Assembly (NCBI RefSeq): GCF_018474015.1
Contig: NZ_JAHCSG010000005.1
Coordinates: 248,001 to 312,000, forward strand
DNA: 64,000 nt
Direction: 5' to 3'
Origin: Williamsia sp. CHRR-6
Lineage (GTDB): Bacteria > Actinomycetota > Actinomycetes > Mycobacteriales > Mycobacteriaceae
The first letter of the stretch is position 1; every line of letters starts with the position of its first letter. The notes beneath the pieces were generated by a model, which saw nothing but the letters and a program-made list of their open reading frames with translations, was not told the origin of the DNA and searched no databases. This document shows positions 13,451-27,929 of the stretch, in pieces. The position numbers and the translations under genes were made by a program.

Positions 13451-13488
13451 CTCACGGCGGCTTATTCTCACGGTAACCACCCCGAAAT
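13451..13488 (+). promoter_or_regulatory. Putative GlnR-type four-element site before the nitrilase gene
   Basis: The elements CTCAC, TTATT, GTAAC and GAAAT are each separated by 6 nt. GTAAC-N6-GAAAT at 13473-13488 is one mismatch from the actinobacterial GlnR half-box GTNAC-N6-GAAAC. The site ends 66 bp before the nitrilase ATG. The same layout recurs at 17626-17663. GlnR control would fit the nitrogen-starvation annotation of these families. That is inference; no binding data. Confidence 0.55.
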
Positions 13489-13554: not shown

Positions 13555-14445
13555 ATGACGATTCTCGCCGCCGCGTCTGCGAACTTCACCCGCGACCTCG
13601 ACCAGAACTACGCGCTGATCGAGTCGCTGGTCGCCCAAGCCCGCTCGGCCGGGGTCGACTTCCTCGCCCTACCCGAAGCCGCGATCGGCGGATACCTGTC
13701 GTCGCTGGGCAACCATGGCGACACCGTCAAAACGACCAGCAGGTCGCTGCCGCCGGCCATCACGGTGGACGGTCCCGAGCTGGCGCGGGTGCGCGGCATC
13801 GCCCGAGACATGGTCGTGGCCATCGGTTTCTGCGAGCTGGCCGAGGACGGGGTGACCCGGTACAACTCCGCCGCCCTACTCGACGGCGACCAGATCTATG
13901 GCAGCTACCGCAAGGTGCACCAACCGCTGGGGGAGGGGATGTCGTATTCGGCGGGCGAGTCCTACAGTGCCTTCGACACGCCGGCGGGGCGCATCGGTCT
14001 TCAGATCTGTTACGACAAGGCCTTTCCCGAGGCCGCCCGGGCGATGGCGCTCGACGGTGCCGAGATCATCGCCAGCCTCTCGGCGTGGCCGGCCGCGCGA
14101 ACGGCCACCGCAGCCGATCTGCAGCAGGACCGCTGGACCTACCGGTTCAATCTCTTCGACATGGCCCGCGCCCTGGACAACCAGGTCTTCTGGGTGGCTT
14201 CCAACCAGTCGGGGACCTTCGGCTCCCTGAACTACGTCGGCAACGCCAAGGTCGTCGATCCGGGCGGAAACGTCCTGGCGACAACACTGTTGGGTTCAGG
14301 TATGGCGATCGCCGAGGTGGACGTCGCGGGCACCTTCGAGGCGATGCGCGGCGGGATGTTCCACCTGCGGGACCGGCGCCCCGACGTCTACGGCGCACTG
14401 ATGGCCGACGGGGCTGCGATTGGCGGAGGCCTCACCCATGCCTGA
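13555..14445 (+). CDS. nitC: Nit6803/Sll0784-family nitrilase (Nit1C cluster)
   Basis: 296-aa carbon-nitrogen hydrolase. The complete catalytic triad is visible: Glu41 (LALPEAAIGGY), Lys120 (YRKVHQP) and Cys152 (LQICYDKAFPEAARAM). Together with an ICYD active site this matches nitrilases rather than amidases of the superfamily. Characterised relatives convert nitriles to acid and ammonia. The gene opens a nine-gene run of Nit1C families, here with the nitrilase first rather than after the 0572-type gene. The stop overlaps the next ORF start by 8 bp. A putative GlnR site lies upstream. The natural nitrile is unknown; cyanide-derived or amino-acid-derived nitriles are possibilities. Confidence 0.92.
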   Translation: MTILAAASANFTRDLDQNYALIESLVAQARSAGVDFLALPEAAIGGYLSSLGNHGDTVKTTSRSLPPAITVDGPELARVRGIARDMVVAIGFCELAEDGVTRYNSAALLDGDQIYGSYRKVHQPLGEGMSYSAGESYSAFDTPAGRIGLQICYDKAFPEAARAMALDGAEIIASLSAWPAARTATAADLQQDRWTYRFNLFDMARALDNQVFWVASNQSGTFGSLNYVGNAKVVDPGGNVLATTLLGSGMAIAEVDVAGTFEAMRGGMFHLRDRRPDVYGALMADGAAIGGGLTHA

Positions 14446-14818
14446 GATGACCTTTGAGGTGCGATGGCCCGACGGACGGGTCGACCGCTGCTACTCTCCG
14501 AGCCTGGTGATGCACGATCACCTGGCCGCTCACACCGTCTACTCCATCTCAGATTTCGTGAGTCGGGCCGCCACCGCCCTGGACATCGCCAGCGAGCGGG
14601 TACGGGCCAAGTACGGGTTCGGCTGCACCTCGGCGATGGCCACTCTGGAGTTGATCCGTTCGCGGGCAGCACGATTCGGTTCCGATGAGGTCGTCGTCGT
14701 CGGTGTGCTGGACCCGACGGTCGACGCGCCCGCACACATCGTTCCCGCCACCCCGCCGGCCGCGACCACCGGCGGCAGGGCCGCGGCAACCGAAGTCGAC
14801 GACAAGGCGGGGTTCTGA
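14438..14818 (+). CDS. MSMEG_0570-family nitrogen starvation response protein
   Basis: Small soluble protein (126 aa) matching the MSMEG_0570 family of Nit1C clusters. The core is FEVRWPDGRVDRCYSPSLVM, followed by a helical segment and KYGFGCTSAMATLELI. The last 25 residues are Ala/Thr-rich and variable. Cys19 and Cys61 are the only candidate catalytic residues seen. ATG 14438 overlaps the nitrilase stop, and the stop overlaps the ATG of the flavoprotein gene (TGATG), so all three are coupled. Biochemical role unknown; the equivalent Pseudomonas gene has been called nitG, which I give from memory. Confidence 0.88.
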   Translation: MPEMTFEVRWPDGRVDRCYSPSLVMHDHLAAHTVYSISDFVSRAATALDIASERVRAKYGFGCTSAMATLELIRSRAARFGSDEVVVVGVLDPTVDAPAHIVPATPPAATTGGRAAATEVDDKAGF

Positions 14819-16140
14819 TGAGCCTGTCCGTAACCGATCCTGCTGGTGCCGAACATGTCTCGGTGATCATCGTCGGCGCCGGGCAAGCTGGATTGTCGGT
14901 GAGCTGGTATCTCGATCGGGCCGACGTCGATCACCTGGTGGTCGAATCCGACACGCCGCTGCACGAGTGGTCGGACACCCGGTGGGACAACTTCACCCTC
15001 GTCACCCCCAACTGGCATTGCCGACTGCCCGGATATCCCTACGACGGACCTGATCCCGACGGCTTCATGACCCGTGACGAGGTGGTGGCCTGGTTGAACA
15101 CCTGGGTGCAGTCGTTCGAGCCGCCGGTTCGGACCCACACGCGGGTGACCCGAGTGGCGCAGTCGGCCTCCGGAGGGTTTGAGGTGACATTGTGCCCCAA
15201 CGAATCTGGCACCCGAAGCGCCGAGGCGACCGAGACGCTCACATGCGACGAGGTGGTGATCGCCACCGGCGGTTACCCGCTGCCGATCACCCCTGACTGG
15301 GCCGATCGGGTGGATCCCGCTGTGCACCAAATACATTCCGAGCAGTACCGCAACGCTGAGCAGTTGCCCGACGGCGCGGTGCTGGTGGTCGGCTCGGGGC
15401 AGTCCGGCGCCCAGATCGCCGAGGACCTGCACCTGGCCGGACGTCAGGTGCACCTCGCCGTCGGCAACGCACCCCGGGTGGCTCGCACCTACCGGGGTCG
15501 CGACTGCATGACCTGGCTGGCCGACATGGGGCTCTACGACATCCCGGTCCGCCAATATCCCGGTGGTGCCGCCGCCCGGGAGAAGACGAACCACTACGTG
15601 ACCGGACGCGACGGTGGGCGCGACATAGACCTGCGAGCGTTCGCCCTGGAAGGGATGCGGCTCTACGGGACCCTCGTCGACGGGGCAGGCCGCACACTGC
15701 ATTTCGCTCCGACACTGAGTGCGGCCCTCGACTCCGCCGACGCCGTGTACAACTCGATATGTCGCGACATCGACGCGCACATCGCGCGTAACCGTCTCGA
15801 CGCACCACCGCCCACCCGCTATCAACCCGTGTGGGTGCCGTCGGAGGATCCGACCGAGCTCGACCTCGCCGACGCCGGTGTCACCTCGATCATCTGGGCC
15901 ATCGGATACCGACCGGACTACCGGTGGATCGAGGCCAGCGCCTTCGACGGATCTGGGCGTCCGATGCAGACGCGGGGGCGCACGCTGGTGCCCGGGCTGA
16001 GCTTCATCGGTCTGCCCTGGATGCACACCTGGGGATCGGGGCGGTTCCTGGGCATCGATGCTGATTCTCGCCATGTCGCCGAGTCGATCATCGATCGCCA
16101 CCACGGTTCTGGTGCGCTGCGGCTGGCCACCGGCGGCTGA
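14818..16140 (+). CDS. MSMEG_0569-family flavin-dependent oxidoreductase
   Basis: 440-aa flavoprotein monooxygenase-like enzyme. The FAD motif GAGQAG is near residues 20-25 (VSVIIVGAGQAGLSVSWYL), and a second dinucleotide motif GSGQSG near residue 191 (VLVVGSGQSGAQIAEDL) would bind NAD(P)H. This is the layout of class B flavin monooxygenases. The C-terminal part carries IIWAIGYRPDYRWI, typical of the group. In Nit1C clusters this protein is a constant member and may oxidise an amine or aldoxime-level intermediate towards the nitrile; this last step is inference. The start overlaps the previous stop; an AMP ligase follows after 8 bp. Confidence 0.9.
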   Translation: MSLSVTDPAGAEHVSVIIVGAGQAGLSVSWYLDRADVDHLVVESDTPLHEWSDTRWDNFTLVTPNWHCRLPGYPYDGPDPDGFMTRDEVVAWLNTWVQSFEPPVRTHTRVTRVAQSASGGFEVTLCPNESGTRSAEATETLTCDEVVIATGGYPLPITPDWADRVDPAVHQIHSEQYRNAEQLPDGAVLVVGSGQSGAQIAEDLHLAGRQVHLAVGNAPRVARTYRGRDCMTWLADMGLYDIPVRQYPGGAAAREKTNHYVTGRDGGRDIDLRAFALEGMRLYGTLVDGAGRTLHFAPTLSAALDSADAVYNSICRDIDAHIARNRLDAPPPTRYQPVWVPSEDPTELDLADAGVTSIIWAIGYRPDYRWIEASAFDGSGRPMQTRGRTLVPGLSFIGLPWMHTWGSGRFLGIDADSRHVAESIIDRHHGSGALRLATGG

Positions 16141-16148
16141 GCGCACGC

Positions 16149-17621
16149 GTGGAACAGTCGATCTCCCGCCTGATCAGTCGGCGGGCGCTCACCGATCCCG
16201 ACGCGGTGATGGTGGCCTGCCTGGGGCCCGCAGGGGAGTCGACGGCGACGATGACCGCTGCGCAGCTCGACCGACACAGCAACCGGCTGACGCGGGTCCT
16301 GATCGAGCGTGGGGTGCGGCCCGATGATCTGGTGACGTTGGCCGCCGACACCACGATCGAGTTCGTGTCGTGGTGCGTCGCGATCTGGAAGGCCGGGGCC
16401 ACCCCACAACCCATCGCGCCCGATCTCGACCCCGCCCAGCGGGGAGCGCTCGAAGCTGTAGTCCGGCCGGCGCTGGCGATCGGTAGTCCACCGGTGGACC
16501 CAGAGGTGCCCTGGATTGCGCTGGATCACCCCGCGCACGGCTTCTCCGACGACGAGTTGCCCGATCTGGCCTCGAGGTCGTGGAAGGCCCCGACGTCGTC
16601 GGGGAGTACCGGCACGCCGAAGGTCGTCGTGGCCACGGCTGCGGCCCGATTCGACCCCGATCGGGCGATCGCACCGTTCATCCCGCGGGCGGTGACACAG
16701 CTGGTGTGTGGGCCGCTGTGGCACTCGGCGACGTTCACCTACGCCATGCGCGGGCTGATGACCGATCACCACCTGGTGTTGCTGCCCCGACCTGATCCCC
16801 ATGCGGTGCTCACCGCGCTGCGGTCATGGCGTATCGGGTGGACGGTGTGGTCGCCCACCTTGATCCATGAGATCGTCGGGCTCGGTTGCGAACTCGACCG
16901 ATTCGACTGCCCGGCATTGCATTCGGTGCTCCACATCGGCGCTCCCTGTCCCGCGCAGGACAAGCGCGCCTTGATCGCATGGCTGGGACCGCACCGCGTC
17001 GTCGAGGTGTATGCGGGCAGTGAATCCAATGGACGCACGATGATCGACGGCCGAGACTGGCTGGCCCACCCCGGGAGCGTCGGCCGAGGACTGGACGACA
17101 CCGAGATCGAGATCCGCGGCGTCCACGGCACCCCGCTCGCCCCGGGACACCACGGGACCATCTGGATGCGGAGGCGCGGACCGACTCGCTACCACTACCT
17201 TGGCGGCCGGTCACAGCGCACCGTCGACGGCTGGGACACGTTGGGTGACATAGGGTTCTGCGATAAGGATGGATGGCTCACCGTCATCGATCGGGCCGCC
17301 GATCGCATCTCGTGTGCCGGCGCCGTCGTCTATCCGGCGGTGATCGAACACCAGATCCTCGAGCATCCCGCAGTGCGCGATGCGGTGGTCTACGCCGTGC
17401 CCGACCGCCACGGCACCACCCGGATGTGCGCGGTAATCGACATCGGTGACCACGACGTCGATCTCGCGCAGGTGCGCGCACACGCCCGATCCCGATTGGG
17501 CGATGGCTGCAGCCCCGGCTCTGTCACCGTGCAACGGAGTCGAATACGCAACGCCGCGGGCAAGGTCCGCCGCGCCGCGATGGCTCGTGCCGAACCCCGA
17601 GACGAGGGGCGGTCTGCCTGA
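16149..17621 (+). CDS. AMP-forming acyl-CoA synthetase/adenylation enzyme in the Nit1C cluster
   Basis: 490-aa member of the ANL superfamily. The P-loop-like motif is SSGSTGTPKVVV (about residues 152-163), A5 reads YAGSESNGRTM, the A7/A8 region reads GDIGFCDKDGWLTVIDRAADRISCAG, and the A10 lysine is Lys472 (AAGKVRR). All catalytic motifs are present, so it should adenylate a carboxylate and transfer it to CoA, an amine or a carrier. No carrier protein gene is nearby. The gene lies inside the cluster (8 bp after the flavoprotein gene), and I do not recall it as a core Nit1C member. Substrate unknown; it might activate the acid released by the nitrilase or a precursor acid. Confidence 0.88.
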   Translation: MEQSISRLISRRALTDPDAVMVACLGPAGESTATMTAAQLDRHSNRLTRVLIERGVRPDDLVTLAADTTIEFVSWCVAIWKAGATPQPIAPDLDPAQRGALEAVVRPALAIGSPPVDPEVPWIALDHPAHGFSDDELPDLASRSWKAPTSSGSTGTPKVVVATAAARFDPDRAIAPFIPRAVTQLVCGPLWHSATFTYAMRGLMTDHHLVLLPRPDPHAVLTALRSWRIGWTVWSPTLIHEIVGLGCELDRFDCPALHSVLHIGAPCPAQDKRALIAWLGPHRVVEVYAGSESNGRTMIDGRDWLAHPGSVGRGLDDTEIEIRGVHGTPLAPGHHGTIWMRRRGPTRYHYLGGRSQRTVDGWDTLGDIGFCDKDGWLTVIDRAADRISCAGAVVYPAVIEHQILEHPAVRDAVVYAVPDRHGTTRMCAVIDIGDHDVDLAQVRAHARSRLGDGCSPGSVTVQRSRIRNAAGKVRRAAMARAEPRDEGRSA

Positions 17622-17625
17622 TCAC

Positions 17626-17663
17626 GTAACAGATCGTTATTCCGTCAATAACCACAACGCAAT
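17626..17663 (+). promoter_or_regulatory. Second GlnR-like four-element site, before the 0572-family gene
   Basis: The elements GTAAC, TTATT, ATAAC and GCAAT are each separated by 6 nt, the same arrangement as at 13451-13488, with an identical second element. It also contains the perfect inverted repeat GTTATT-N5-AATAAC (17636-17652). It ends 98 bp before the 0572-type ATG, in the only sizeable gap inside the cluster, and so probably drives a second promoter. Confidence 0.5.
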
Positions 17664-17761
17664 TGGGTGCCGATGTACTCAGCGCACACACTGCCGCTCG
17701 ACAACACCCGCCCGACCACTTCCGCCCGATGATTCACCGACGCACCAGCGAAAGGCACGAC

Positions 17762-18286
17762 ATGTCTGAGATCGACGACGCCATCAAGGCCAACATCGAG
17801 AAGTCCCTGGCCGAGATCCCACATCCGTCTCTGCCCAAGGGTTCCAACATCTACGGCTCCACCAAGCTGTTCCCCGACTTCAAGGCCGAGGCCGGCGAGA
17901 CCTACTTCACCCTTGTCCACGGTATCGCCCACGAGTCGTCGGTGAGCTTCGTCGCCGTGCTGCAGGCCACGCGCGCGCTGCGCAAGGGATTCGAGTCGGC
18001 CATCTATTTCTACGGCCCGGGCGCGATCAACTGTCTTGCCACCCGCGGCTTTCCGACCACCGGCGACTCGGGCTTCCCGGGCGAGCAGAACATCAACGAC
18101 TCCCTGGAGACGTTCATCGGCGAGGGCGGCACCGTCTACTGCTGTCGTTTCGGGCTGGCGCTGCACGGGGGCCGCGAGGAGGATCTGATCGGCGGCGTCA
18201 TCCCGGCACACCCCCTCGACGTCCAGGACGCCCTCATCTACTACGCACGCAAGGGCGCGATCATCAACTCCACATACATGGTCTAG
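17762..18286 (+). CDS. MSMEG_0572/Sll0783-family nitrogen starvation response protein
   Basis: 174-aa protein matching the MSMEG_0572/Sll0783 family, the most characteristic Nit1C marker. Visible features are LVHGIAHESSVSFVAVLQATRALRKGFESAIYFYGPGA and a central EGGTVYCCRFGLALHGGREEDLIGGVIPAHPLDVQDALIYY, giving a small alpha/beta fold resembling DsrE-type proteins, with a Cys-Cys pair. ATG 17762 follows GAAAGGCACGAC; an in-frame start further up at 17663 would give a Pro/His-rich extension that is less likely. In Synechocystis the sll0783 gene is induced by nitrogen limitation and was linked to PHB synthesis, a point recalled from literature. Molecular function unresolved. Confidence 0.9.
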   Translation: MSEIDDAIKANIEKSLAEIPHPSLPKGSNIYGSTKLFPDFKAEAGETYFTLVHGIAHESSVSFVAVLQATRALRKGFESAIYFYGPGAINCLATRGFPTTGDSGFPGEQNINDSLETFIGEGGTVYCCRFGLALHGGREEDLIGGVIPAHPLDVQDALIYYARKGAIINSTYMV

Positions 18287-18295
18287 GGGGCGGCG

Positions 18296-19351
18296 ATGTC
18301 GGTATCCACGCGGGTCGACCTGGCCCTGCTCGGCATCCGCGGCCAACCACCGGTGTCGCGGTCGGCCGGAGCCGGTCCCAGCGACGACGGTCATCTCGTG
18401 ATCGACGGGATGAACGCCGCGCTGCCCCGAAACCCGCAGAGCCCGTATGAGTTCGACGGGCAACGGTTGCTCTACGACGGTGTGGACACCGGCCTCGACG
18501 TAGCCGTGATCAACCGGCCTCGCTTCTACGATCTGCACACTGCCGACGGCGTCGCCTACGAGCAGATCGCGCGCCTGCACGGGCGAGATGTATTGGCCAC
18601 CACAGTGGTTCAGACCTGCATCCGCTACGCCGAGGATCAGCGATGCCGATTCTGTTCGATCGAGGAGTCATTGCGGACGGGGTCGACGGTGGCGGTCAAA
18701 CGCCCCGCCGACCTCGCCGAGGTGGCAGCCGCGGCAGTGCGACTCGACGGGGTGCGTCAGATGGTGATGACCACCGGAACCTCGGCTGGGCGTGATCGCG
18801 GGGCTCGACATCTCGCGCGGTGCACGGCCGCGGTCCGTGCGGCGGTGCCGGATCTACCGATCCAGGTCCAGTGCGAGCCGCCCGACGATCTGGCCACCAT
18901 CACCGAACTGCGTTCGGCCGGGGCCGATTCCATCGGCATCCACGTGGAGTCGATGGACGACACCGTGCGCCGGCGCTGGATGCCGGGCAAGTCGACGGTG
19001 CCGCTGGTCGACTACTGGGCCGCCTGGACCGAGGCAGTTCGGGTGTTCGGTCGCAACCAGGTGTCGACGTACCTGATCGTCGGGCTGGGCGAGGACCCCG
19101 ATGAACTCGTCACCAGCGCCCGTCAGCTCATCGACGCGGGCGTGTACCCGTTCGTCGTCCCCTTCCGCCCACATCCGGGGACCCTCGCCGTCGACGCGGA
19201 CCGGGTGGGTGCACCCGATCCCGCGCTGGTGGAAAAGGTGTCGCGACAGGTGGCCGAACACCTCACGTTCACCGGGATGCTCGGGGCCGACCAGCGGGCC
19301 GGGTGTGCGGCCTGCGGTGCTTGCAGTGTCCTGCAGAACGTAGGCGGCTGA
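18296..19351 (+). CDS. MSMEG_0568-family radical SAM enzyme (Nit1C)
   Basis: 351-aa radical SAM protein. The cluster-binding cysteines are Cys108, Cys117 and Cys120 (TCIRYAEDQRCRFCSIEES), spaced CX8CX2C instead of the usual CX3CX2C. A second Cys group near the C-terminus, Cys337/Cys340/Cys343 (GCAACGAC, CX2CX2C), could hold an auxiliary cluster. The barrel shows MVMTTGTSAG and STYLIVGLGEDPDEL, close to biotin synthase/lipoyl synthase-type segments. It is a core Nit1C protein, preceded by the 0572 gene (9 bp) and followed by the GNAT fusion (4 bp). Its reaction has not been established; C-C bond cleavage or methyl/sulfur chemistry are all possible. Confidence 0.91.
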   Translation: MSVSTRVDLALLGIRGQPPVSRSAGAGPSDDGHLVIDGMNAALPRNPQSPYEFDGQRLLYDGVDTGLDVAVINRPRFYDLHTADGVAYEQIARLHGRDVLATTVVQTCIRYAEDQRCRFCSIEESLRTGSTVAVKRPADLAEVAAAAVRLDGVRQMVMTTGTSAGRDRGARHLARCTAAVRAAVPDLPIQVQCEPPDDLATITELRSAGADSIGIHVESMDDTVRRRWMPGKSTVPLVDYWAAWTEAVRVFGRNQVSTYLIVGLGEDPDELVTSARQLIDAGVYPFVVPFRPHPGTLAVDADRVGAPDPALVEKVSRQVAEHLTFTGMLGADQRAGCAACGACSVLQNVGG

Positions 19352-19355
19352 ACCG

Positions 19356-20828
19356 ATGCTGTCCGACACGGTTTCGACGCCGTTCGCAGCCGGTCAGATC
19401 TCCATCCTGGCCGGGTCACCACCGAGGCTGGGCGGCACCCCTGCCCCTGGCACGGACGGCACTCGGGTCGACTACCTGATCCAGCGAGCCGAATCTGATT
19501 CGGTTGTCGCCGAGTATCGGCGCCTGCGACGCGAGGCGTTCGTGGTCGAACAACACCTGTTCACCCGCGATGATCACGACGACATCGACGATGATCCGCG
19601 CACCGTCGTTCTGGTGGCGCTCGACCCGGACGGCACGGTGTTGGGCGGGGTCCGTCTGGCACCCTGCACGCCCACCGACATCGGATGGTGGGCAGGCAGT
19701 CGCCTGGTGGTCCGACCCGGCGGTCGCCACCTCGGGGCCGGTCCAGCTCTGATCCGCGCCGCCTGCGCGCACGCGCAGGCCCACGGGGTGTTGCGGTTCG
19801 ACGCTCTGGTCCAGGCCCGCCACCTGTCGATCTTTCGGCGGCTCGGCTGGGTGGCCGCGACCGGCGTCGACCATGCCGACTCATCGGTGGGCGGGGTCGA
19901 ACACATCGCGATGCGCTGGCCCATCGGCGCGATCCAGGCCACCGCCGACGCGACCAAATCGTTCCTCGGTGCCGCGCTCGCGCCGCTGCGGGCACAGCCC
20001 GGCGGTCTCGGACCGGCCGGCTTCACCGGCGACGACGGCGTCCCGGTGCCACGATCGGATGTGATCGCCGCCTGCGACGCGATCATCCCGTCGATGGTCG
20101 AACGTGATCCTGAGTGGGCAGGCTGGTGTTCGGTACTGGTCAACCTCAACGACCTGTCGGCCATGGGTGCCGATCCCACGGGTCTGCTCGACGCCGTCGG
20201 TGCGCCCAGCCGCTCGCACCTCACCCGCATCATCCGAGGGCTCGCTGCGGCCGCCGCCGCATGGGGGGTACCGGTGCTCGGCGGTCACACCCAACTCGGC
20301 GTCCCGTGCGCACTGTCGGTCACCGCGCTGGGCCACGCCGCCGACCCGATTCGCGCCGGAGGCGGTCGCTGCGGCGACGAGATCCGACTGACCGCCGACC
20401 TCACCGGTACCTGGCGGCGCGGATATCAGGGCCGTCAATGGGACTCGACAAGTGGACGCGGCGGAACCGACCTGCGAGCGATGGGCGCACTGATGGGGGC
20501 CATGCGTCCGGCCGCCGCGAAGGACGTCAGCATGGCCGGCACCGTGGGCACCCTCGGGATGCTGGCCGAGGCGTCGGGAACCGGGGCTGAACTCGACATG
20601 GCGTCGGTGCCCCGGCCCGAGGGCACCGACATGGGGGCCTGGCTGTCGTGTTTCCCGGGTTTCGCGATGATCAGCGCAGGCGCGGTGTCCCCGACACCAC
20701 TGCCTGCGGGTGTGGTCAGCACAGCGTGCGGTCGACTCACCTCGGCGCCAGGGGTTCGACTGCGCTGGCCTGACGGCGAACTGAGCACCGCGATCGGAGC
20801 CGGGGTGACCGGCCTGGGTGACGCGTGA
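19356..20828 (+). CDS. GNAT N-acetyltransferase fused to AIR-synthase-like (PurM fold) domain
   Basis: 490-aa two-domain protein. Residues ~30-185 form a GNAT domain (MSMEG_0567/Sll0786 family), with the acetyl-CoA loop RPGGRHLGAGPALIRAACAHA. Residues ~190-490 form a PurM/AIR-synthase-like ATP-binding domain (Sll0787 type), with GDDGVPVPRSDVIAACDAIIP, NLNDLSAMGADPTGLLDAVG and a late GFAMISAG. In cyanobacteria these are two genes (sll0786, sll0787), so fusion couples acylation with an ATP-dependent step. PurM-fold enzymes activate carbonyl oxygens by phosphorylation or act as kinases, as in SelD and HypE. HypE makes a nitrile (cyanide) ligand by dehydrating a thiocarboxamide, an interesting precedent. 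Start ATG follows the radical SAM stop by 4 bp. Confidence 0.9.
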   Translation: MLSDTVSTPFAAGQISILAGSPPRLGGTPAPGTDGTRVDYLIQRAESDSVVAEYRRLRREAFVVEQHLFTRDDHDDIDDDPRTVVLVALDPDGTVLGGVRLAPCTPTDIGWWAGSRLVVRPGGRHLGAGPALIRAACAHAQAHGVLRFDALVQARHLSIFRRLGWVAATGVDHADSSVGGVEHIAMRWPIGAIQATADATKSFLGAALAPLRAQPGGLGPAGFTGDDGVPVPRSDVIAACDAIIPSMVERDPEWAGWCSVLVNLNDLSAMGADPTGLLDAVGAPSRSHLTRIIRGLAAAAAAWGVPVLGGHTQLGVPCALSVTALGHAADPIRAGGGRCGDEIRLTADLTGTWRRGYQGRQWDSTSGRGGTDLRAMGALMGAMRPAAAKDVSMAGTVGTLGMLAEASGTGAELDMASVPRPEGTDMGAWLSCFPGFAMISAGAVSPTPLPAGVVSTACGRLTSAPGVRLRWPDGELSTAIGAGVTGLGDA

Positions 20829-21709
20829 GTGCGCCGACCGTGACACGCCCCACCGGTGCGGTGACGATCGGCGCGGTGGCCGCACACTTCGGCCGCGACC
20901 TCGATCGCGGACTGAGCAAGATCCGCACCATCATCGCCGGTGCTGCGCGAGACGGCGTGGATCTGCTGGTGCTTCCCGACGCGGCCCTCGGTGGATACCT
21001 CGGTGACCTGCGTTCGCCCGACGTCACCGCGCTGCCGCCCACACTGCGGGTCGACGGACCCGAGATCGCGATGGTGGCCGCAGCGGCCGGCCCGATGACG
21101 GTCTGCGTCGGCTACGCCGAAGAAGCCGACGGGCGACGGTTCAACTCCGCGGTGTGCGTCAGCGGGGATGGTGTGCTGGGCACCCACCGCAAGGTGCATC
21201 AGCCGGCGGGGGAGTCGATCGCCTATGACGCTGGTGACGGGTTCGAAGCTTTCGACACCCCGGTCGGACGGATGGGCATGCTGATCGACTACGACAAGAC
21301 GTTCCCCGAGGCCGCCCGCACGGTCGCCCTCGACGGCGCCCACGTCATCGCCGCCCTGTCGGCCTGGCCGGCCAGCGTCACCGATCGCGCGTCACGGCTG
21401 CCTGCCGATCGACAGTCACGGTTGTTCGATCTCTACGACGCCGCTCGGGCCGCCGAGAACCAGGTGGTGCTGGTGTCGTCCAACCAGACGGGGGTGATGG
21501 GTTCGCTGCGCTTCCTCGGACAGGCCAAGGTCGTGGGCCCTGGCGGAGAGATCCTGGCGACCACCCGATCCAAGGGCGGGATGGCTCGGGTGACGATGGA
21601 CATCAGCGCCGAGATCGCCCGCTCCCGGCGGGTTCTCGATCATCTCGCCGAGCGTCGTGTGGAGACCTACGCCGACGTGCCGTCGGTTCCCGGCACGTGT
21701 GCACCGTGA
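20825..21709 (+). CDS. Nitrilase-fold paralogue with substituted catalytic residues (probable pseudoenzyme)
   Basis: 294-aa nitrilase-superfamily protein clearly related to the first gene of the cluster: GGYL after the Glu site, HRKVHQP, DYDKTFPEAARTVALDGAHVIAALSAWPAS, QVVLVSSNQTGVMGSL. However the catalytic Glu is Asp52 (LVLPDAALGGY) and the nucleophilic Cys is Asp155 (LIDYDKTFPEAA); only Lys123 is kept. Without the Cys it cannot form the thioimidate/acyl-enzyme. It may bind the same ligand as a regulator or scaffold, pair with the active nitrilase in mixed spirals, or catalyse a non-hydrolytic step. The GTG start overlaps the previous stop (GTGA), and the stop overlaps the glycosyltransferase GTG. 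The rest of the fold is intact, so decay seems unlikely. Confidence 0.9.
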   Translation: MSAPTVTRPTGAVTIGAVAAHFGRDLDRGLSKIRTIIAGAARDGVDLLVLPDAALGGYLGDLRSPDVTALPPTLRVDGPEIAMVAAAAGPMTVCVGYAEEADGRRFNSAVCVSGDGVLGTHRKVHQPAGESIAYDAGDGFEAFDTPVGRMGMLIDYDKTFPEAARTVALDGAHVIAALSAWPASVTDRASRLPADRQSRLFDLYDAARAAENQVVLVSSNQTGVMGSLRFLGQAKVVGPGGEILATTRSKGGMARVTMDISAEIARSRRVLDHLAERRVETYADVPSVPGTCAP

Positions 21710-22818
21710 CCCGCTCGTTGTCGATCGCGTTGATCACCTACTCGACCAAACCGCGTGGCGGGGTGGTTCACACCTTGCATCTGGCCGAGGCGTTGGCAGC
21801 AGCCGGTGCGCGGGTGACGGTGTGGTCGCTGGCGCGGGCCGGTGACGTCGGGTTCTTTCGGGCTGTCGACCCCGCGGTGACCGTCCGACTGGTCGACTTC
21901 CCGACCGTCGACGGCGAATCGGTAACCGAGCGAATCGTGCGTTCCATCGAGGGGATGCGGGCAGCGGTGCGCCTCGACGACTACGACATCGTCCACGCAC
22001 AGGACTGCATCAGTGCCAATGCCGTCGGCACCTGTATCCGGACCGTGCACCACCTCGACACCTTCACCACGCCGATCCTGGTGGAATGCCACGAGAAGGC
22101 GATCGTCACCCCGTACGCGCACATCTGCGTGTCGCAGGCGGTGGCCGACGAGGTACACCACGGGTGGGGAGTGTCACCCACCGTCATCCCCAACGGTGTC
22201 GCCGCGGGGCGGTTCGCCGCCGCCGCCGCCGACACCGAAGAGGCGACCCGGGCGCGCCGGCGCTGGACCGACCGATTGGGCGACTACGTCCTGGCGGTCG
22301 GTGGCATCGAACCTCGCAAGGGGACAATCGATCTGGTGCGTGCTGTCGCTCGCCTGCAGACCATCCGACCTGAGATGTCCCTGGTGATCGCGGGCGGGGA
22401 GACGCTTTTCGACTACCGGGATTACCGCAGCGAGTTCGAATCGACCTGTGCCGCATTCAATGTCGATCCGGTGGTGCTCGGTGCGGTCGACGACGACGAA
22501 CTGCCCGCGCTGGTGGCCGCCTGCCGGGTGTTCGCCTTCCCGTCGACCAAGGAGGGCTTCGGCCTGGCGGCGATGGAGGCCCTGGCCGCCGGGCGACCGG
22601 TGGTGGCGCGTGACCTGCCGGTGCTGCGCGAGGTGTTCGGTGACACGGTGCGCTACGCCGGCGATGTCACCGGCCTCGCCCAGGAACTCGGCGACGCATG
22701 CCAACACCCGTCGACCACGCGCGATCGTGCCGCGGGCCAGGCGGTGGCTGCGGCCCTCACCTGGGATGTGGCCGCGCGCGCGCACCTGGACTTCTACCGT
22801 CGGCACCCGCGGCCCTAG
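21706..22818 (+). CDS. MSMEG_0565-family GT4 glycosyltransferase (Nit1C)
   Basis: 370-aa GT-B glycosyltransferase. The N-terminal Rossmann half has the donor/acceptor glycine motif KPRGGVVHTLHLAEALAAAGARVTVWS. The C-terminal half has the GT4 E-x7-E motif in KEGFGLAAMEALAAGRPVVARDL (residues ~282-291). No membrane helix is seen. It would move a sugar from a nucleotide sugar to a small molecule. GTG 21706 overlaps the stop of the nitrilase paralogue by 4 bp; GTG 21697 is an alternative. As last gene of the cluster it suggests that the pathway product is glycosylated. It ends 31 bp before the convergent DUF5695 gene. Confidence 0.9.
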   Translation: MTRSLSIALITYSTKPRGGVVHTLHLAEALAAAGARVTVWSLARAGDVGFFRAVDPAVTVRLVDFPTVDGESVTERIVRSIEGMRAAVRLDDYDIVHAQDCISANAVGTCIRTVHHLDTFTTPILVECHEKAIVTPYAHICVSQAVADEVHHGWGVSPTVIPNGVAAGRFAAAAADTEEATRARRRWTDRLGDYVLAVGGIEPRKGTIDLVRAVARLQTIRPEMSLVIAGGETLFDYRDYRSEFESTCAAFNVDPVVLGAVDDDELPALVAACRVFAFPSTKEGFGLAAMEALAAGRPVVARDLPVLREVFGDTVRYAGDVTGLAQELGDACQHPSTTRDRAAGQAVAAALTWDVAARAHLDFYRRHPRP

Positions 22819-22849: not shown

Positions 22850-25800
22850 TCACTTCAGTCCATCGATGCGGACATCGTCGATGTCGCCGATGAACTGCGG
22901 CCCGCCGAGACCTGACAGACCCAGGTAGTTCATCCGGGTGGCACCCAGCGCACTGGGAGCGACACGCAGATCGCGGACCGCCGACACCGGCGTCCCGTCG
23001 ACGAACATCTGATACTCGACCCGAGAGGGACCGCGGGTGCCGATGGTGACGGAGATGGTCGTCCAGCGCCCCGGTTGCGCGCGGAATGTCGAGTCCAGCT
23101 CCTGTTCAGTGGTCGCCGTCGCGATCTGGGTGACCGCGACACCTGGTACCGACAACGGGGTGAGCGAGAAATACGTCTCGTCGGGACCCGTGATGTCGAA
23201 CAACGGGAACTGATCCTTCTGGCCCACCTGCGATGCGTCGGCACGGAAGCGCATCGAGATGGTGCAGCTGTCGCAGCGACTCAGGATGTTCTCAGGCATG
23301 GCGGCGAACGAGTTCAGGGTTCCGTCAAGGTGCAGATGGCTGCCGGTACCGTCGGACCTGATCTCTGAACGGCCGAACAGAAGCAGGTCGTTGCCGTTTC
23401 CCGAGGTGTCGGGGACGGTTCGGTTGCGCTGGCTGTCAAAGGTGTAGTGGACCCAGTGCGCCGGCATAGGTGGCCGTGGCCGCACCACCACCGAGACCGA
23501 ATCGCTACTGCTCAATCGCCCGTCGGAGACCGACAACCGGAACGAGTAGGTCCCGGGCGTGCTCACCGTGACCCGTGGTCGCAGCGAACCCGCGGTGTCG
23601 ATGCGTGCCGAACCACCGACAGGTGTCGCGGTGACCGTCCAGCGGCTCGCCAGCGTCGCATCACCCGAACCAACCCCGTCGTCACGAGCTGATCCGTGCA
23701 ACGTGATGGCCTCGGTCCCGAAGGTCACCGTCTGATCGGGGCCGGCATCGACAGCGGGAGCGGTGTTCGGCGGGGTCGCCACGGGGTCGATCGAGAGCCC
23801 GAAGCGTCGGGCCGGCGGGGCGTTGAACTCGAATCGGACCGTGGGTGCCAGACCGTTGCGCGGTGGGGCGACGACGACTGTCCGACCAGGTTTCCCGTCC
23901 ACCGATACCCGATAAGCACCCGACACGAGTCCCGACACCCGGACGGTCCCGGTGTGCGAAGTACCTGCGGTGTTGGCCATGTCCAGTCGCAGCGCGCTGT
24001 TGGTGGCGGCCACCGTTGCCTGACGGTATGTGTCGGTGTCCAGCGACACCGACAGCTGTTGGCTCACCATGTTGAGTCGGCGGTTGACCCCGTCGGCCGG
24101 GGTGATGGTGGTGGACCGCGCGGTGGCTGTGGATCGCCCGCCGTAGGTGAGGGAGCCGAAGATGGGATCGTCGGTGACGACGTCGGTACTCATGGTCTGC
24201 AGGACACCCCACAGCCCGAGGTCACTCTCGCCGCTGCGGCTGCGCCACCCGTTGAGTTGCTCGACGTTTGGGCCACCGCCGTCACCCAGGGTCCCCAGCC
24301 GGCCCAACTCGGACTGGTAGGTCCAGGCGGAGGCCCCGATGTTCGCCGGGTCGGAGCTGATCTGACCGGAGTTGACACCGGCCATCAGGGTGGTCTTGGC
24401 GGCGTAGTTGGCGCGCTGCAGTTCCGCCCGGCGCGACGGGGTCACGGTGTCGCGACCCGTCTCGGTGGCCGCAGTGTGATTGACGTAGTCGTCCAACGGG
24501 TAGCCGGCCAGTGCGACGCTGTATTGCAACTGCCACCAGTTCTCCCCGTTGATGGTGGTGGGTACCACGTCGCGATACCAGACCGGCATGCGTCCTCGGG
24601 TGGCCAGCGTCTTGCCCACGATCTGGCGAAATGTCTTCTGCGCGCGTGCTCGGTCGGTCGCCATACGTTGTCGGGCCAGCGTGTAGACCGATTCTTCGCC
24701 GGTGTTGTCGTAGCTGTATTCCGAGCCGAAGGGGTATTTCTGCTTGGCGAACGCCTGATATTTGTCGTCGAGGGCGTCGTCGATGTCGTCGGCCTCTGCG
24801 GTCATCCCGGCATCGCGAAGGGCCTCCACGATGGTCGGCAGCAGTTGATCGCCCATCAGCCCGGCCTGCGAGTACCCGACGGGACCGCGGTAGAGCTCGC
24901 GCATGACGCCGTATGCGGCCTCGAGATACCACTGCGCGGGATGAGCGAACCGGATGATGCCCGGATACTGCTTGGCGATGCGGTACATGTCGAAAAACGT
25001 CGTGTAGATGTGCGGGTAGTTGTACCCGCGGTAGATCGGTGTGGTCCCCAGGCGTCCCGGTCGGCCCTGCTCCCAGAAGTTGAAGACCAGGTAGGACGGG
25101 TTCGTGCTGTCGGCAGAGTTGCCCATGAGGTTCTGCCAGACCGCCGTGGTCAGGTATCCGTCGAGCGCGCGTATCTGATCGGCGACCGGGTCTATCCGGT
25201 TCATCGCGGCGAGGAACTCGGCATGGGTGAAACCCCAGTCGTCGCCGAGCCCGAAGGATCCGGTGAAGTCGTTGTTGCGGCCGCCGGGAGGATTGTCGGA
25301 GGTGGGTGCAGATCCGTCGCGGGCGTTCATCAGCCAGTCGTCGAACGTCTGGTCGCGGATGTCGCCGGGCGCGAGTCGGTCCCGTTCGCGGGTCCACTGG
25401 GTCTTGGCGACCAGGAACGCAGCGTGCGCGCGGAGCGCCTTCCCGGTCGCGTCCGACACGTACAGCTGGGCGACCGAGGTGTTCATCCGTCCGGCCGGAT
25501 CTCGCCAGCGTACGGTGATCTGGTTGCGGCCCAGTGCGTTTCGGTTGGGGGTCACGGTGTAAATGCGGTAATCGCCGTTCGCTCTGGAATAGCGGATGGC
25601 GGGATCGCTGCGGACTGCCGATTTCAGGTCGTTCCCGGTTCGGGCGCTGACCGAGGTGATGGTGCCTTTGACCCGGACCGCGAGCTGAGCCTGCTGGTCG
25701 ACCGGCAACACCCACCCGGGCACCATCTGCAGATCCGGTTGCCCCAGCGCGACGAGAGTGTCGCGGCGGGCCACATCGTCGGCGACCGCCGAGATCCGAT

Positions 25801-26779
25801 AGCCGTGTGTGACCGAGGTGCCGGGATCGATGACGGTGGCGGTGTTGTCGAGGTAACCACGGCCCGTCGCGGCAATGGCGGTGGAGTTGCTGTAGAACAC
25901 GTTGAGGCCCTTGATGTTCGACAGCCCTTCCGGGGACGACGCCCACGCTGTCTGGCCCACTTCTTCGACCCGCCAGCGATCCTGGTACTCGAACCCTGAA
26001 CCGGTTCCCACGTCGGGGGTGAGCAACAGTGATGGCCCGATGCCACTTGGTCGACCGATCGTGATGAACGAACCGTCTCGTCCTACAAACGAGTGCGCCA
26101 ACACGCGCGTCTCGTAGATCTCGTCTTTGGGCTTGGTGAAGGTCTCGTTGTTCGGTATCGGCATCCCCCAATCACCGATGGTCAGGCGTCGACCCGAGGT
26201 GTTGTCGACGGTTTGAGACCACCGCATCGACCCGTCCGGGGCGAGGGAGTAGCGCTGGGTCACGGTGAAATCGGCGATGCCGCCCGGGGTGCGCGAGTTG
26301 CGGTAGGTCACGGTCACCGACGACGCGGTCTGCTCCACTGTGCGTCCGTCGCCGGAGAGGGTGGTCCACGCGCGCTGCCATGGCGTGCCCCCGACACCGC
26401 TCGTGGTCGCAGGACCGTCCCCGAGCGCGTAGGAGAACATCAGGTTGCCCAGCCATTGACGTTTGCCCACGTCAGGCTCGGCGGCCTCGTCAGGCGCGCT
26501 CACCGGGTTCATCACGTACTGCGTGTCGAAGGTGTCGCCGTTGATTCGCAACGACTGGATGCTGCCGTCGGCGCCGAACCCCACCTTGAGCTGCTTGGAC
26601 GCCAACCGGTGGGCGATTGCGGGCTCGGTGTCAGCCGACGCGGGGGTGGGCGTCACCGCCATCCCGGTCGCGATCACCGCCAGAGTCGCCATGCAGGCGA
26701 CGAGCCGCAAACACCCACCCGTCGGTGTCGCGCGACGCGCCGGCTCGGGCCAGAGCAAACCACGATTACGTCTGATCAC
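22850..26779 (-). CDS. Large secreted DUF5695 protein with PKD-like and LamG-like C-terminal domains
   Basis: 1309-aa exported protein. The N-terminal signal peptide has basic residues (IRRNRG), a hydrophobic core (ACMATLAVIATGMAV) and likely cleavage after TPASA. The large central part (about residues 55-990) matches DUF5695, a family with an alpha/alpha-toroid look suggestive of glycoside hydrolase or lyase activity; the fold assignment is inference. A PKD-like domain follows (about 1003-1100, AVDAGPDQTVTFGTEAITLHG; RLSVSDGRLSSSDSV), then a LamG/concanavalin-like domain (about 1105-1309, YTFDSQRNRTVPDTSGNGNDL). GTG 26779 is chosen because GAGGAAG precedes it; the frame stays open further upstream but without a start signal. 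Probably a polysaccharide-active secreted enzyme. It lies downstream of the nucleoside hydrolase gene. Confidence 0.85.
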   Translation of the reverse strand: MIRRNRGLLWPEPARRATPTGGCLRLVACMATLAVIATGMAVTPTPASADTEPAIAHRLASKQLKVGFGADGSIQSLRINGDTFDTQYVMNPVSAPDEAAEPDVGKRQWLGNLMFSYALGDGPATTSGVGGTPWQRAWTTLSGDGRTVEQTASSVTVTYRNSRTPGGIADFTVTQRYSLAPDGSMRWSQTVDNTSGRRLTIGDWGMPIPNNETFTKPKDEIYETRVLAHSFVGRDGSFITIGRPSGIGPSLLLTPDVGTGSGFEYQDRWRVEEVGQTAWASSPEGLSNIKGLNVFYSNSTAIAATGRGYLDNTATVIDPGTSVTHGYRISAVADDVARRDTLVALGQPDLQMVPGWVLPVDQQAQLAVRVKGTITSVSARTGNDLKSAVRSDPAIRYSRANGDYRIYTVTPNRNALGRNQITVRWRDPAGRMNTSVAQLYVSDATGKALRAHAAFLVAKTQWTRERDRLAPGDIRDQTFDDWLMNARDGSAPTSDNPPGGRNNDFTGSFGLGDDWGFTHAEFLAAMNRIDPVADQIRALDGYLTTAVWQNLMGNSADSTNPSYLVFNFWEQGRPGRLGTTPIYRGYNYPHIYTTFFDMYRIAKQYPGIIRFAHPAQWYLEAAYGVMRELYRGPVGYSQAGLMGDQLLPTIVEALRDAGMTAEADDIDDALDDKYQAFAKQKYPFGSEYSYDNTGEESVYTLARQRMATDRARAQKTFRQIVGKTLATRGRMPVWYRDVVPTTINGENWWQLQYSVALAGYPLDDYVNHTAATETGRDTVTPSRRAELQRANYAAKTTLMAGVNSGQISSDPANIGASAWTYQSELGRLGTLGDGGGPNVEQLNGWRSRSGESDLGLWGVLQTMSTDVVTDDPIFGSLTYGGRSTATARSTTITPADGVNRRLNMVSQQLSVSLDTDTYRQATVAATNSALRLDMANTAGTSHTGTVRVSGLVSGAYRVSVDGKPGRTVVVAPPRNGLAPTVRFEFNAPPARRFGLSIDPVATPPNTAPAVDAGPDQTVTFGTEAITLHGSARDDGVGSGDATLASRWTVTATPVGGSARIDTAGSLRPRVTVSTPGTYSFRLSVSDGRLSSSDSVSVVVRPRPPMPAHWVHYTFDSQRNRTVPDTSGNGNDLLLFGRSEIRSDGTGSHLHLDGTLNSFAAMPENILSRCDSCTISMRFRADASQVGQKDQFPLFDITGPDETYFSLTPLSVPGVAVTQIATATTEQELDSTFRAQPGRWTTISVTIGTRGPSRVEYQMFVDGTPVSAVRDLRVAPSALGATRMNYLGLSGLGGPQFIGDIDDVRIDGLK

Positions 26780-26780
26780 G

Positions 26781-26884
26781 TTCAGTGCATCTTCCTCGAG
26801 CTGGTGGACCACGACGGTACCCAGTCTCAAGGATGATGGAAAGCCCTGGTGCACTGAGTAATTCGCTGATTCAGTGCATTCTTC
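26781..26884. repeat. TTCAGTGCAT repeats flanking the DUF5695 upstream region
   Basis: TTCAGTGCATCTTC (26781-26794) and TTCAGTGCATTCTTC (26870-26884) are near-identical direct copies 89 bp apart. An inverted copy TGCACTGA at 26850-26857 forms the perfect inverted repeat TGCACTGA-N13-TCAGTGCA (26850-26878) with the second. One copy overlaps the DUF5695 ribosome-binding/start region and the other overlaps the end of the nucleoside hydrolase gene. The arrangement resembles operators for one regulator; a weak terminator is the alternative reading of the inverted pair. Confidence 0.45.
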
Positions 26885-27929
26885 ACGAATCAGACACCGA
26901 GCCTGCCCGGCGGGCCAGGTGGGCGATCCGCTCGATGAGGTCGTCGAAGAAGACATCGGCGTCTGCGGCCACCGCGATGGCGGCGTTGGGGTCGCGACCC
27001 CACATGCCGCGCAGGTCGGCCACCGTGGTGCCTCGGGTGAGGGTGCCCCCGAGCTCCACGTCCACGCACGCCGACATGGTCGCGGCGATGCTCGGATCCA
27101 CGGCAACGGCCGCAGCGAACGGGTCATGCATATGGGCGATGTAGCCCTCGGACTGGTCGGCATGGAACTCGAAGTAGAAGCGCACCGCATCGACGACGGC
27201 AGCGACCACGGGATTGCTTGCCACCGAACGAGTTCCGCGTTCGTCGTCGATCCCGGGCTGCTCGATCGGGGAGCTGTCGGCAGCTGCGGCCAACCGCGCG
27301 AGATGATCAGGTGTCATCACGATCGTCTCGGTGAGGTCGAGCGGGCAGACGATCGGGGTGGGAGCGCCATCGCGGCCGAACGCGGCGAACACATGCGCTG
27401 CGGCCTCGGGATCGACCGCGATGTTCCACTCCGAGGTGGGAGTGGTGTTCCCGGGGTGGTGGAACGCACCGCCCATGATCACCAGACGTCGCAACCGGCT
27501 CGGCAGCAGCGGATCTCGTTCGATCGCCAGCGCCAGGTTGGTCAGCGGACCGGTGACCAGTCCGATCACCTCGCCGGGCCGATCGGTGGTGATCTCGATC
27601 CAGGCGTCAGCGGCATCGCGTTGCGATCGCGTCGACAGTCCGGTGGGCAACTCGGCGTATCCGATTCCCCACGGGCCGTGAGTGTCCTCGGTGGTCATCA
27701 GCTCGGCCACCAGCGGACCCGCTGCACCAAGACAGACCTCCACGTCATCGCGCCCGCAGAGGGCCAGCCAAGCGAGGTTGTTGGCGCACACCACATCTGC
27801 GGGAACATTGCCTGCGCTCGAGAGCACGGCCAGCAGATCCACCTCACCGTGGGCCAGCAGATACAGCAGGGCAAGAGAGTCGTCGATTCCGGTGTCGCAG
27901 TCGAAGACGACGGGGATGTCTGCAGCCAT
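26883..27929 (-). CDS. Nucleoside hydrolase (IunH family)
   Basis: 348-aa enzyme that cleaves the N-glycosidic bond of nucleosides for base salvage. The N-terminal Ca2+-binding Asp cluster reads VFDCDTGIDDSLAL (DxDxGxDD), and SAGNVPADVVCANNLAWLALCGRDDVEV continues the family pattern. VTGPLTNLALAIE and the C-terminal EGYIAHMHDPFAAAVAVDPS (second Asp region) complete the active site. Substrate choice (purine, pyrimidine or a nicotinamide riboside-like compound) cannot be read from the motifs. ATG 27929 is supported by a leaderless -10 box that overlaps the end of the DinB-like gene. Confidence 0.92.
   Translation of the reverse strand: MAADIPVVFDCDTGIDDSLALLYLLAHGEVDLLAVLSSAGNVPADVVCANNLAWLALCGRDDVEVCLGAAGPLVAELMTTEDTHGPWGIGYAELPTGLSTRSQRDAADAWIEITTDRPGEVIGLVTGPLTNLALAIERDPLLPSRLRRLVIMGGAFHHPGNTTPTSEWNIAVDPEAAAHVFAAFGRDGAPTPIVCPLDLTETIVMTPDHLARLAAAADSSPIEQPGIDDERGTRSVASNPVVAAVVDAVRFYFEFHADQSEGYIAHMHDPFAAAVAVDPSIAATMSACVDVELGGTLTRGTTVADLRGMWGRDPNAAIAVAADADVFFDDLIERIAHLARRAGSVSDS

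Follow-up and report, generated by a model that had tools for sequence, protein, structure and literature searches.

Background

Nit1C-type gene clusters have been linked to cyanide use in Pseudomonas and to NADPH/redox balance in Synechocystis and Mycobacterium smegmatis. In Pseudomonas, Nit1C with the nitrilase NitC is tied to growth on cyanide (PMC11049912), whereas in Synechocystis the sll0783 mutant shows no rise in the NADPH/NADP ratio upon nitrogen starvation (PMC3901256). The MSMEG_0565-0572 genes of M. smegmatis constitute the GlnR-dependent gpr cluster, which raises the NADPH/NADP ratio and the survival of peroxide (PMC6039565). Nitrogen starvation induces these genes, and the region upstream of msmeg_0572 is bound by GlnR (PMC4222082, PMC3662644, PMC4617892). 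Two of their products are annotated as a carbon-nitrogen (CN) hydrolase (0571) and an aliphatic amidase (0566) (PMC4222082), and the latter, a putative enzyme, has been suggested to contribute to nitrogen assimilation (PMC6039565). We analyzed a nine-gene locus in a 64,000-nucleotide stretch of the Williamsia sp. CHRR-6 genome, hereafter the window, which very probably represents the actinobacterial, gpr-type form of Nit1C. One of its two CN hydrolases, which we call CNH-B, lacks the nitrilase catalytic triad and yet is conserved along with its active-type paralog, CNH-A.

Eight of the nine Williamsia genes, including the two CN hydrolases, are shared with gpr as judged by family names and locus numbering, and consensus-like boxes upstream of the Williamsia genes are candidate sites for a control by nitrogen starvation and GlnR such as that of gpr. 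The two clusters differ in that Williamsia has an AMP ligase, which is not among MSMEG_0565-0572, and in that 0572 comes first in M. smegmatis, whereas in Williamsia CNH-A is first and 0572 opens a second, boxed module. The Pseudomonas and cyanobacterial clusters (nitBCDEFGH and the sll0783 cluster), judged by family models and descriptions, share with the Williamsia locus the 0572/Sll0783, radical SAM, GNAT, AIR-synthase-like, 0570 and 0569 proteins, but in place of their Nit6803/NitC nitrilase Williamsia has a duplicated amidase-type pair, besides the AMP ligase. The GNAT and PurM parts are fused in a single Williamsia gene and are separate in two of the loci compared (L234 and L235; L and G numbers are our labels for loci and genomes). 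The cluster itself was already known; what appears to be new is the conserved triad-less CN hydrolase with its co-occurrence, the predicted control in two modules and the accessory ligase. In the consulted portions of the open-access literature we found no account of a triad-less CN hydrolase in Nit1C/gpr clusters or its pairing with an active copy, of two-module control of such clusters, or of an AMP ligase in them.

Gene content and recurrence of the cluster

All nine open reading frames (ORFs) lie co-directionally on the plus strand at positions 13555-22818 of the window. Neighboring ORFs overlap or stand at most 9 base pairs (bp) apart, the sole exception being a 140-bp gap (17622-17761) between the AMP ligase and 0572, so that the tight packing with one gap reported in the initial annotation is borne out by the ORF positions. 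In order, the genes are:

13555..14445, + strand: CNH-A, a CN hydrolase with intact Glu41-Lys120-Cys152; counterpart of MSMEG_0571 by synteny
14420..14818, + strand: MSMEG_0570-family nitrogen starvation response protein (TIGR04042, 118 bits, cut-off 79.85)
14818..16140, + strand: MSMEG_0569-family flavin-dependent oxidoreductase (TIGR04046, 637 bits, cut-off 498)
16149..17621, + strand: AMP ligase (acyl-CoA-ligase-like), a cluster accessory with adenylation motifs and a C-terminal lysine motif
17762..18286, + strand: MSMEG_0572/Sll0783-family nitrogen starvation response protein (TIGR04044, 251 bits, cut-off 110)
18296..19351, + strand: MSMEG_0568-family radical SAM protein (TIGR04043, 509 bits, cut-off 304)
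19356..20828, + strand: MSMEG_0567 GNAT acyltransferase/PurM-AIR-synthase-like fusion (TIGR04045 and TIGR04050, both above cut-off)
20825..21709, + strand: CNH-B, a triad-less CN hydrolase paralog with Asp52-Lys123-Asp155; counterpart of MSMEG_0566 by synteny
21697..22818, + strand: MSMEG_0565-family GT4 glycosyltransferase (TIGR04047, 460 bits, cut-off 260)

Six of the nine genes (0570, 0569, 0572, 0568, 0567 and 0565) exceed the NCBIfam cut-off of their own family; in the 0567 fusion, the GNAT part scores 79 bits (cut-off 68) and the C-terminal AIRS-like part 476 bits (cut-off 312). These scores bear out the earlier assignment of the six to a Nit1C-like nitrogen-starvation set, and with the two CN hydrolases assigned by synteny all eight gpr-type families are present together at the locus. 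The true start of the 0570 gene is probably at 14438 or 14447.

A profile search with 0568 at an E-value threshold of 1e-60 matched 48 of 201 family genomes and 28 of 396 phylum genomes (22 of these 28 above the 0568 cut-off), and the regions surrounding the matches were read for 47 and 25 of them, respectively. All eight core genes are held by 35 of the 47 family regions, and two of the remaining twelve (L058, L060) are clipped by contig ends; such recurrence excludes chance as an explanation of the gene set. Named relatives were collected by an alignment search with CNH-B, of which the best 80 of 479 were taken. These best 80 come from Williamsia, Gordonia, Mycolicibacterium/Mycobacterium, Nocardia, Rhodococcus/Rhodococcoides, Millisia, Smaragdicoccus and a few other genera, and the eight core genes are complete in 64 of them. 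The two locus sets overlap; deduplication by distinct CNH-B sequence reduced 130 loci to 102, and the overlap is retained in raw triad counts, genus box counts and the ratios of nonsynonymous to synonymous substitution (dN/dS) given below.

A CN hydrolase pair of the amidase type

The initial annotation named the cluster nitrilase as Nit6803, which fails on the scores: the Nit6803 model, with a cut-off of 502.6 bits, gives CNH-A 34.1 and CNH-B 34.4 bits. Both match the Pfam CN_hydrolase domain (PF00795) with 150 and 111 bits, respectively, are 49% identical to each other and are closest to amidases, the best solved relatives of the pair being N-carbamoylputrescine amidohydrolase and Pyrococcus CN hydrolases. 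When 61 chosen rows were placed in a tree, the Nit6803-type proteins, including those of a cyanobacterial cluster and of a Methylocystis plasmid cluster, branched separately from CNH-A and CNH-B. Of the 73 actinobacterial genomes in which 0568 was matched at E 1e-60 (67 of them above the 0568 cut-off), none had a Nit6803 homolog above the cut-off; weaker homologs occur in 13 of the 73, none of them at the 0568 locus. Score, genome survey and tree position together rule out the Nit6803 identity and set the actinobacterial form of the cluster apart from the Nit6803 form. Since NitC is the nitrilase tied to growth of Pseudomonas on cyanide, the use of cyanide or nitriles cannot be directly transferred to this locus. 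Of the two links drawn by the initial annotation, the one to nitrogen starvation is supported by GlnR-type boxes and the M. smegmatis expression data, whereas the direct carry-over of cyanide or nitrile use is not upheld.

CNH-B lost its triad once and has been retained

The second CN hydrolase turned out to be a regular part of the actinobacterial cluster. In a search with CNH-A at E 1e-60, matches were divided by score, without use of the triad, into a CNH-A type (at least 324 bits) and a CNH-B type (at most 284 bits). The identical 48 of the 201 family genomes match 0568, the CNH-A type and the CNH-B type, and the other 153 match neither search; the CNH-B-type matches of two genomes (G042, G185) cross one TGA, and the cluster CNH-A of another (G092) is fragmented over several contigs. 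The earlier description of a second nitrilase homolog as an extension of the cluster thus does not stand, and neither does the idea that it is a novelty peculiar to the Williamsia cluster, since it is standard in related loci. Beyond the family, CN hydrolases of the CNH-A/B kind were found in three of the 25 phylum regions (L078, L079, L080), with none recognized inside the stretch read around 0568 in the deep actinobacterial loci L082-L102.

Judged by its sequence, this second protein is without a working nitrilase triad. The residues at the triad positions of CNH-B in the 102 distinct loci are Asp-Lys-Asp in 93, His-Lys-Asp in eight and Glu-Lys-Cys in one, the triad being lost in 101 of the 102. 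The exception, L080, contains just one CN hydrolase, whose tree position beside CNH-A is weakly supported (94/64). CNH-A retains Glu-Lys-Cys in 88 of 89 distinct loci, the odd one out being L223, where the triad is unreadable because the match covers residues 115-285 only. The syntenic counterpart of MSMEG_0566 is triad-less in 80/80 named loci (the best 80 of 479), the M. smegmatis protein itself being likened to them by synteny, and the survey casts doubt on whether MSMEG_0566-type proteins are functional amidases, as annotated.

In the tree, CNH-A and CNH-B each form one clade (98/88 and 99/91), and a single change suffices for the triad loss of CNH-B. Like its active-type sister CNH-A, CNH-B is under purifying selection: the median dN/dS values for CNH-A and CNH-B, respectively, are 0.31 and 0.21 in the first set (639 of 946 pairs usable) and 0.15 and 0.17 in the second (1464 of 2415), the two sets overlapping and the pairs being non-independent. 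Over 20 aligned CNH-B sequences the mean column identity is 72%, with Asp155 and Lys123 being invariant in all 20 rows and Glu130 nearly so. The predicted structure, with a predicted local distance difference test score (pLDDT) of 88.5, displays the CN-hydrolase fold; its best Foldseek matches are amidases, and the top one is the C146A variant of a Pyrococcus amidase. We therefore consider it very likely that CNH-B, though triad-less, is functional.

Two modules, partner exchange and predicted control

The cluster consists of two modules that are separable in the genome. In four family genomes (G010, G040, G106, G142) the cluster has the order 0568-0567-0570-CNH-B-0565, led by 0572 where the contig extends far enough, and CNH-A sits elsewhere with 0569 adjoining it; in G106 both pieces are at contig ends, so that their linkage is ambiguous. 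Likewise, Rhodococcoides trifolii has a cluster without CNH-A and an 81% CNH-A match on another contig. The distant CNH-A proteins of G010, G040, G142 and R. trifolii are 81-83% identical to that of the window. We had considered that CNH-B might persist without CNH-A in the four family clusters lacking it, and dropped this on finding CNH-A elsewhere in all four genomes and in R. trifolii. Among six separate-module loci fetched, a second 0572 gene leads four (L239, L241, L242, L243), one is clipped by a contig end (L240) and no leading 0572 was seen in the sixth (L244). The identities of the proteins point to an exchange of partners between the modules: CNH-B of G010 shares 88% identity with its G131 counterpart and 76% with the window copy, and the separate CNH-A of G040, a sister genome of G010, is 84% identical to that of the window and 55% to the copy in the G131 cluster.

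Potential GlnR sites were sought with the M. smegmatis consensus (PMC3662644), relaxed at one position, up to 260 bp upstream of genes, with base-shuffled sequences as controls. The window has two candidates:

13473..13488, + strand: GlnR-type box 1, GTAACCACCCCGAAAT, differing from Gn2AC-n6-GnAAC at one position and lying 66 bp ahead of the CNH-A start
17648..17663, + strand: variant GlnR-type box 2, ATAACCACAACGCAAT, with the first and last consensus positions off, in the 140-bp gap before 0572

All 16 Williamsia-type loci (9 distinct) have a matching site ahead of CNH-A, and the 15 besides the window (8 of the 9 distinct) have a consensus-like site in the gap before 0572. More generally, of the 92 distinct loci in which 0572 leads, 84 have a box ahead of it, versus 6.2 in shuffles and 4/92 in a control stretch. 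The corresponding figures are 9 of 13 for a leading CNH-A (0.7 in shuffles, 0/13 in the control stretch), where the nine box-bearing loci are those of Williamsia type and the other four are without a box, and 2 of 76 for an internal CNH-A (4.5 and 8/76). Where a separate first module is led by a second 0572 it has a GlnR-type box of its own in all four loci concerned (G010, G040, G131, G142). This distribution supports the prediction of two GlnR-controlled transcription units, and by extension GlnR would control the cluster in the Williamsia strain. A promoter scan gave no match, and terminator-like sites numbered 3, versus 1.8 in shuffles.

The AMP ligase is a recurrent accessory

The AMP ligase matches the Pfam AMP-binding domain (PF00501, 125 bits) and PF13193; none of the 25 NCBIfam matches listed, out of 89, reaches its cut-off. 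Its alignment shows, in outline, the adenylation motifs, including the phosphate-binding motif and the C-terminal lysine. It is present in 19 of the 88 distinct loci showing 0569, 0568 and 0567, lying directly after 0569 in 17 of the 19 and after 0565 in two (L079, L216), and hence is not unique to the Williamsia strain, as might have been supposed. In the genus of the window the ligase is inside the cluster in all eight matching genomes; in one genome (G044) its match crosses a TGA. In two genomes (G076, G092) the match begins 80 bp after that of 0569, on a contig other than that of 0568; these contigs begin just upstream of CNH-A, and the separation of the modules is clear only in relatives such as G131. 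At E 1e-70, 14 other family genomes match the ligase with 36-39% identity. The ligase that the initial annotation listed as an addition to Nit1C is thus a real but recurrent one.

Conserved features of the 0572, 0568 and 0567 proteins

The most conserved protein among those aligned is 0572, with a mean column identity of 94% over 23 sequences; it gave no Pfam match, and a search of solved structures yielded no hit below E 0.29. The radical SAM protein 0568 has its cysteines in the spacing CX8CX2C, a pattern found in all 98 distinct loci with the gene and unusual for the radical SAM superfamily; a search of solved structures gave no meaningful relative. In 0567, the PurM motif DX4GAXP, as defined in PMC4506123, is present in the window as DLSAMGADP.

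Possible functions of CNH-B and the cluster

The claim that the enzyme set exceeds what nitrile hydrolysis needs is upheld, and the cluster may, as the initial annotation suggests, make, activate and glycosylate a nitrogenous metabolite. The explanation that we favor, by a modest degree, is that of two nitrogen-starvation modules with CNH-B as a non-catalytic partner. Under this proposal, nitrogen starvation would turn on a biosynthetic and a hydrolytic/oxidative module, both acting on one nitrogenous metabolite. The first module (CNH-A, 0570, 0569 and the AMP ligase) would be the hydrolytic and oxidative one, in which CNH-A may cleave a C-N bond in a substrate resembling an amide or a nitrile. 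The ligase may activate a carboxylic acid, perhaps the acid released by CNH-A or an acyl group for the GNAT domain. The second module (0572, the radical SAM protein, GNAT-PurM, CNH-B and GT4) would make or remodel a nitrogenous, acylated and glycosylated small molecule, possibly with ATP spent by the PurM-like domain on the oxygen of an amide or carboxamide. CNH-B, being without Glu-Lys-Cys, cannot use the mechanism of that triad, and on balance it is probably a non-catalytic partner that either assists CNH-A as a subunit, regulatory or structural, or holds the same ligand for the second module. The net effect would probably be as measured for gpr of M. smegmatis, with a shift of the NADPH pool toward the reduced state and a more economical use of nitrogen during starvation. 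We offer the individual reactions as tentative suggestions.

There are precedents for such a partnership, which we offer as analogies for the Williamsia pair. The plant nitrilase NIT4A/NIT4B2 is heteromeric, its paralogs working as one enzyme (PMC5154151), and in trypanosome deoxyhypusine synthase a catalytically dead paralog boosts the active one (PMC3663545).

Several observations weigh against this explanation. The partner exchange seen among G010, G040 and G131 argues against a tightly co-evolved CNH-A/CNH-B dimer; in the tree, the join that makes the two clades sisters is weak (93/64) and long branches are flagged among the outgroups. As to control, box 2 of the window is two positions off the consensus and was left out of the box counts, sites are absent at 8 of the 92 leading 0572 genes and 4 of the 13 leading CNH-A genes, and the box statistics rest on a relaxed consensus and base-shuffled controls. 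The proposed chemistry draws on family resemblance throughout. The nearest solved structure to the ligase, which has no close characterized relative, is a bile acid-CoA ligase; the predicted structure of 0572 (pLDDT 50) is too poor for use; the DX4GAXP pattern is missing in 16 of 99 distinct 0567 loci (best ORF only); and the AIR-like part of 0567, which passes TIGR04050, scores below the cut-off of the sll0787 model TIGR04049 (173.5 versus 321.3).

The strongest alternative holds that CNH-B is an enzyme of new chemistry, in which the Asp that invariably occupies the nucleophile position would join with the retained Lys and a neighboring Glu in an altered active site, working by acid-base chemistry, a metal or an Asp nucleophile. 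The invariance of Asp155 and Lys123, the near invariance of Glu130 and the retention of the fold are in its favor, as is the fact that pure scaffolding has no need of an invariant Asp. However, the position of the triad Glu is taken by Asp in most distinct loci and by His in eight, which is unusual for a catalytic residue, and no natural enzyme of such a kind was recognized among the solved matches listed; we regard this alternative as unlikely. A broader and only slightly less doubtful conjecture, which spans both possibilities, is that CNH-B represents a new functional class of the nitrilase fold, evolved once by replacement of Cys with an invariant Asp, retained alongside an active sister and a radical SAM/PurM/GNAT pathway, and acting as an allosteric or ligand-relay subunit or by Asp-based chemistry in the synthesis of a nitrogen-starvation metabolite, with acyl activation by the AMP ligase being optional.

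It is rather improbable that the cluster serves cyanide or nitrile assimilation in the manner of Pseudomonas nit1C, with CNH-A in the role of NitC. The shared 0572, 0568, 0567, 0570 and 0569 families and the link of the Pseudomonas cluster to growth on cyanide (PMC11049912) would fit this, but CNH-A is remote from Nit6803 in both score and tree, its best solved relatives are the N-carbamoylputrescine amidohydrolase and a Pyrococcus CN hydrolase, and the 0568-bearing genomes have Nit6803 homologs, where at all, in weaker versions elsewhere. We hold it equally improbable that CNH-A donates ammonia to the ATP-using PurM-like domain, such that the product of the cluster would be an amide, amidine or nitrile instead of free ammonia. 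Glutaminase-like coupling of this sort is known for NAD synthetase, and a CN hydrolase gene follows the GNAT-PurM gene in the two common gene orders. The PurM-fold enzyme HypE uses ATP to act on a carbamoyl group, which is finally turned into cyanide (PMC4506123). Nevertheless, at least four genomes carry CNH-A apart from the PurM gene, and the gene after PurM in most one-copy clusters is CNH-B, not CNH-A. Finally, that CNH-B is a decaying, functionless duplicate, as the disappearance of two of its three triad residues could suggest, is hardly credible and was rejected on the tree and on dN/dS: the loss was a single old one, retained in the family and in two outside lineages (L078, L079), the median dN/dS is about 0.2, and a CNH-B-type match is present in every cluster genome of the family.

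The always-kept triad-less paralog, the two modules and the accessory ligase offer handles toward finding the metabolite on which the cluster acts.

Genomic context and further observations

Upstream of the cluster, on the same strand, are genes for methylmalonyl-CoA mutase and MeaB, the latter ending 150 bp before CNH-A. A long ORF of 1446 residues lies downstream on the minus strand (22850-27190), with no NCBIfam family match at E 1e-20. For M. smegmatis, selenocysteine read-through of the MSMEG_0571 stop into 0569 has been proposed (PMC6039565). In the corresponding region of the window (14445-14818), the open frame around 0569 has 483 codons and the 0569 protein 440 residues, which implies at least one further in-frame stop between CNH-A and 0569; a single recoded stop would not fuse them.

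Two records carry cluster genes at scores that sit oddly with their titles, which may be wrong or reflect contamination: L166, titled Kitasatospora arboriphila, has gene scores as in G106 of the window's family, and L217, titled Acidobacteriaceae, has cluster genes at Mycobacteriales-like scores. Plasmids also carry such genes. A relative of 0568 at E 1e-30 is present in 513 plasmid records, of which 373 are from Klebsiella, and on the linear plasmid pLP1 of Rhodococcus qingshengii (L233) the eight-gene cluster is flanked by transposase genes.

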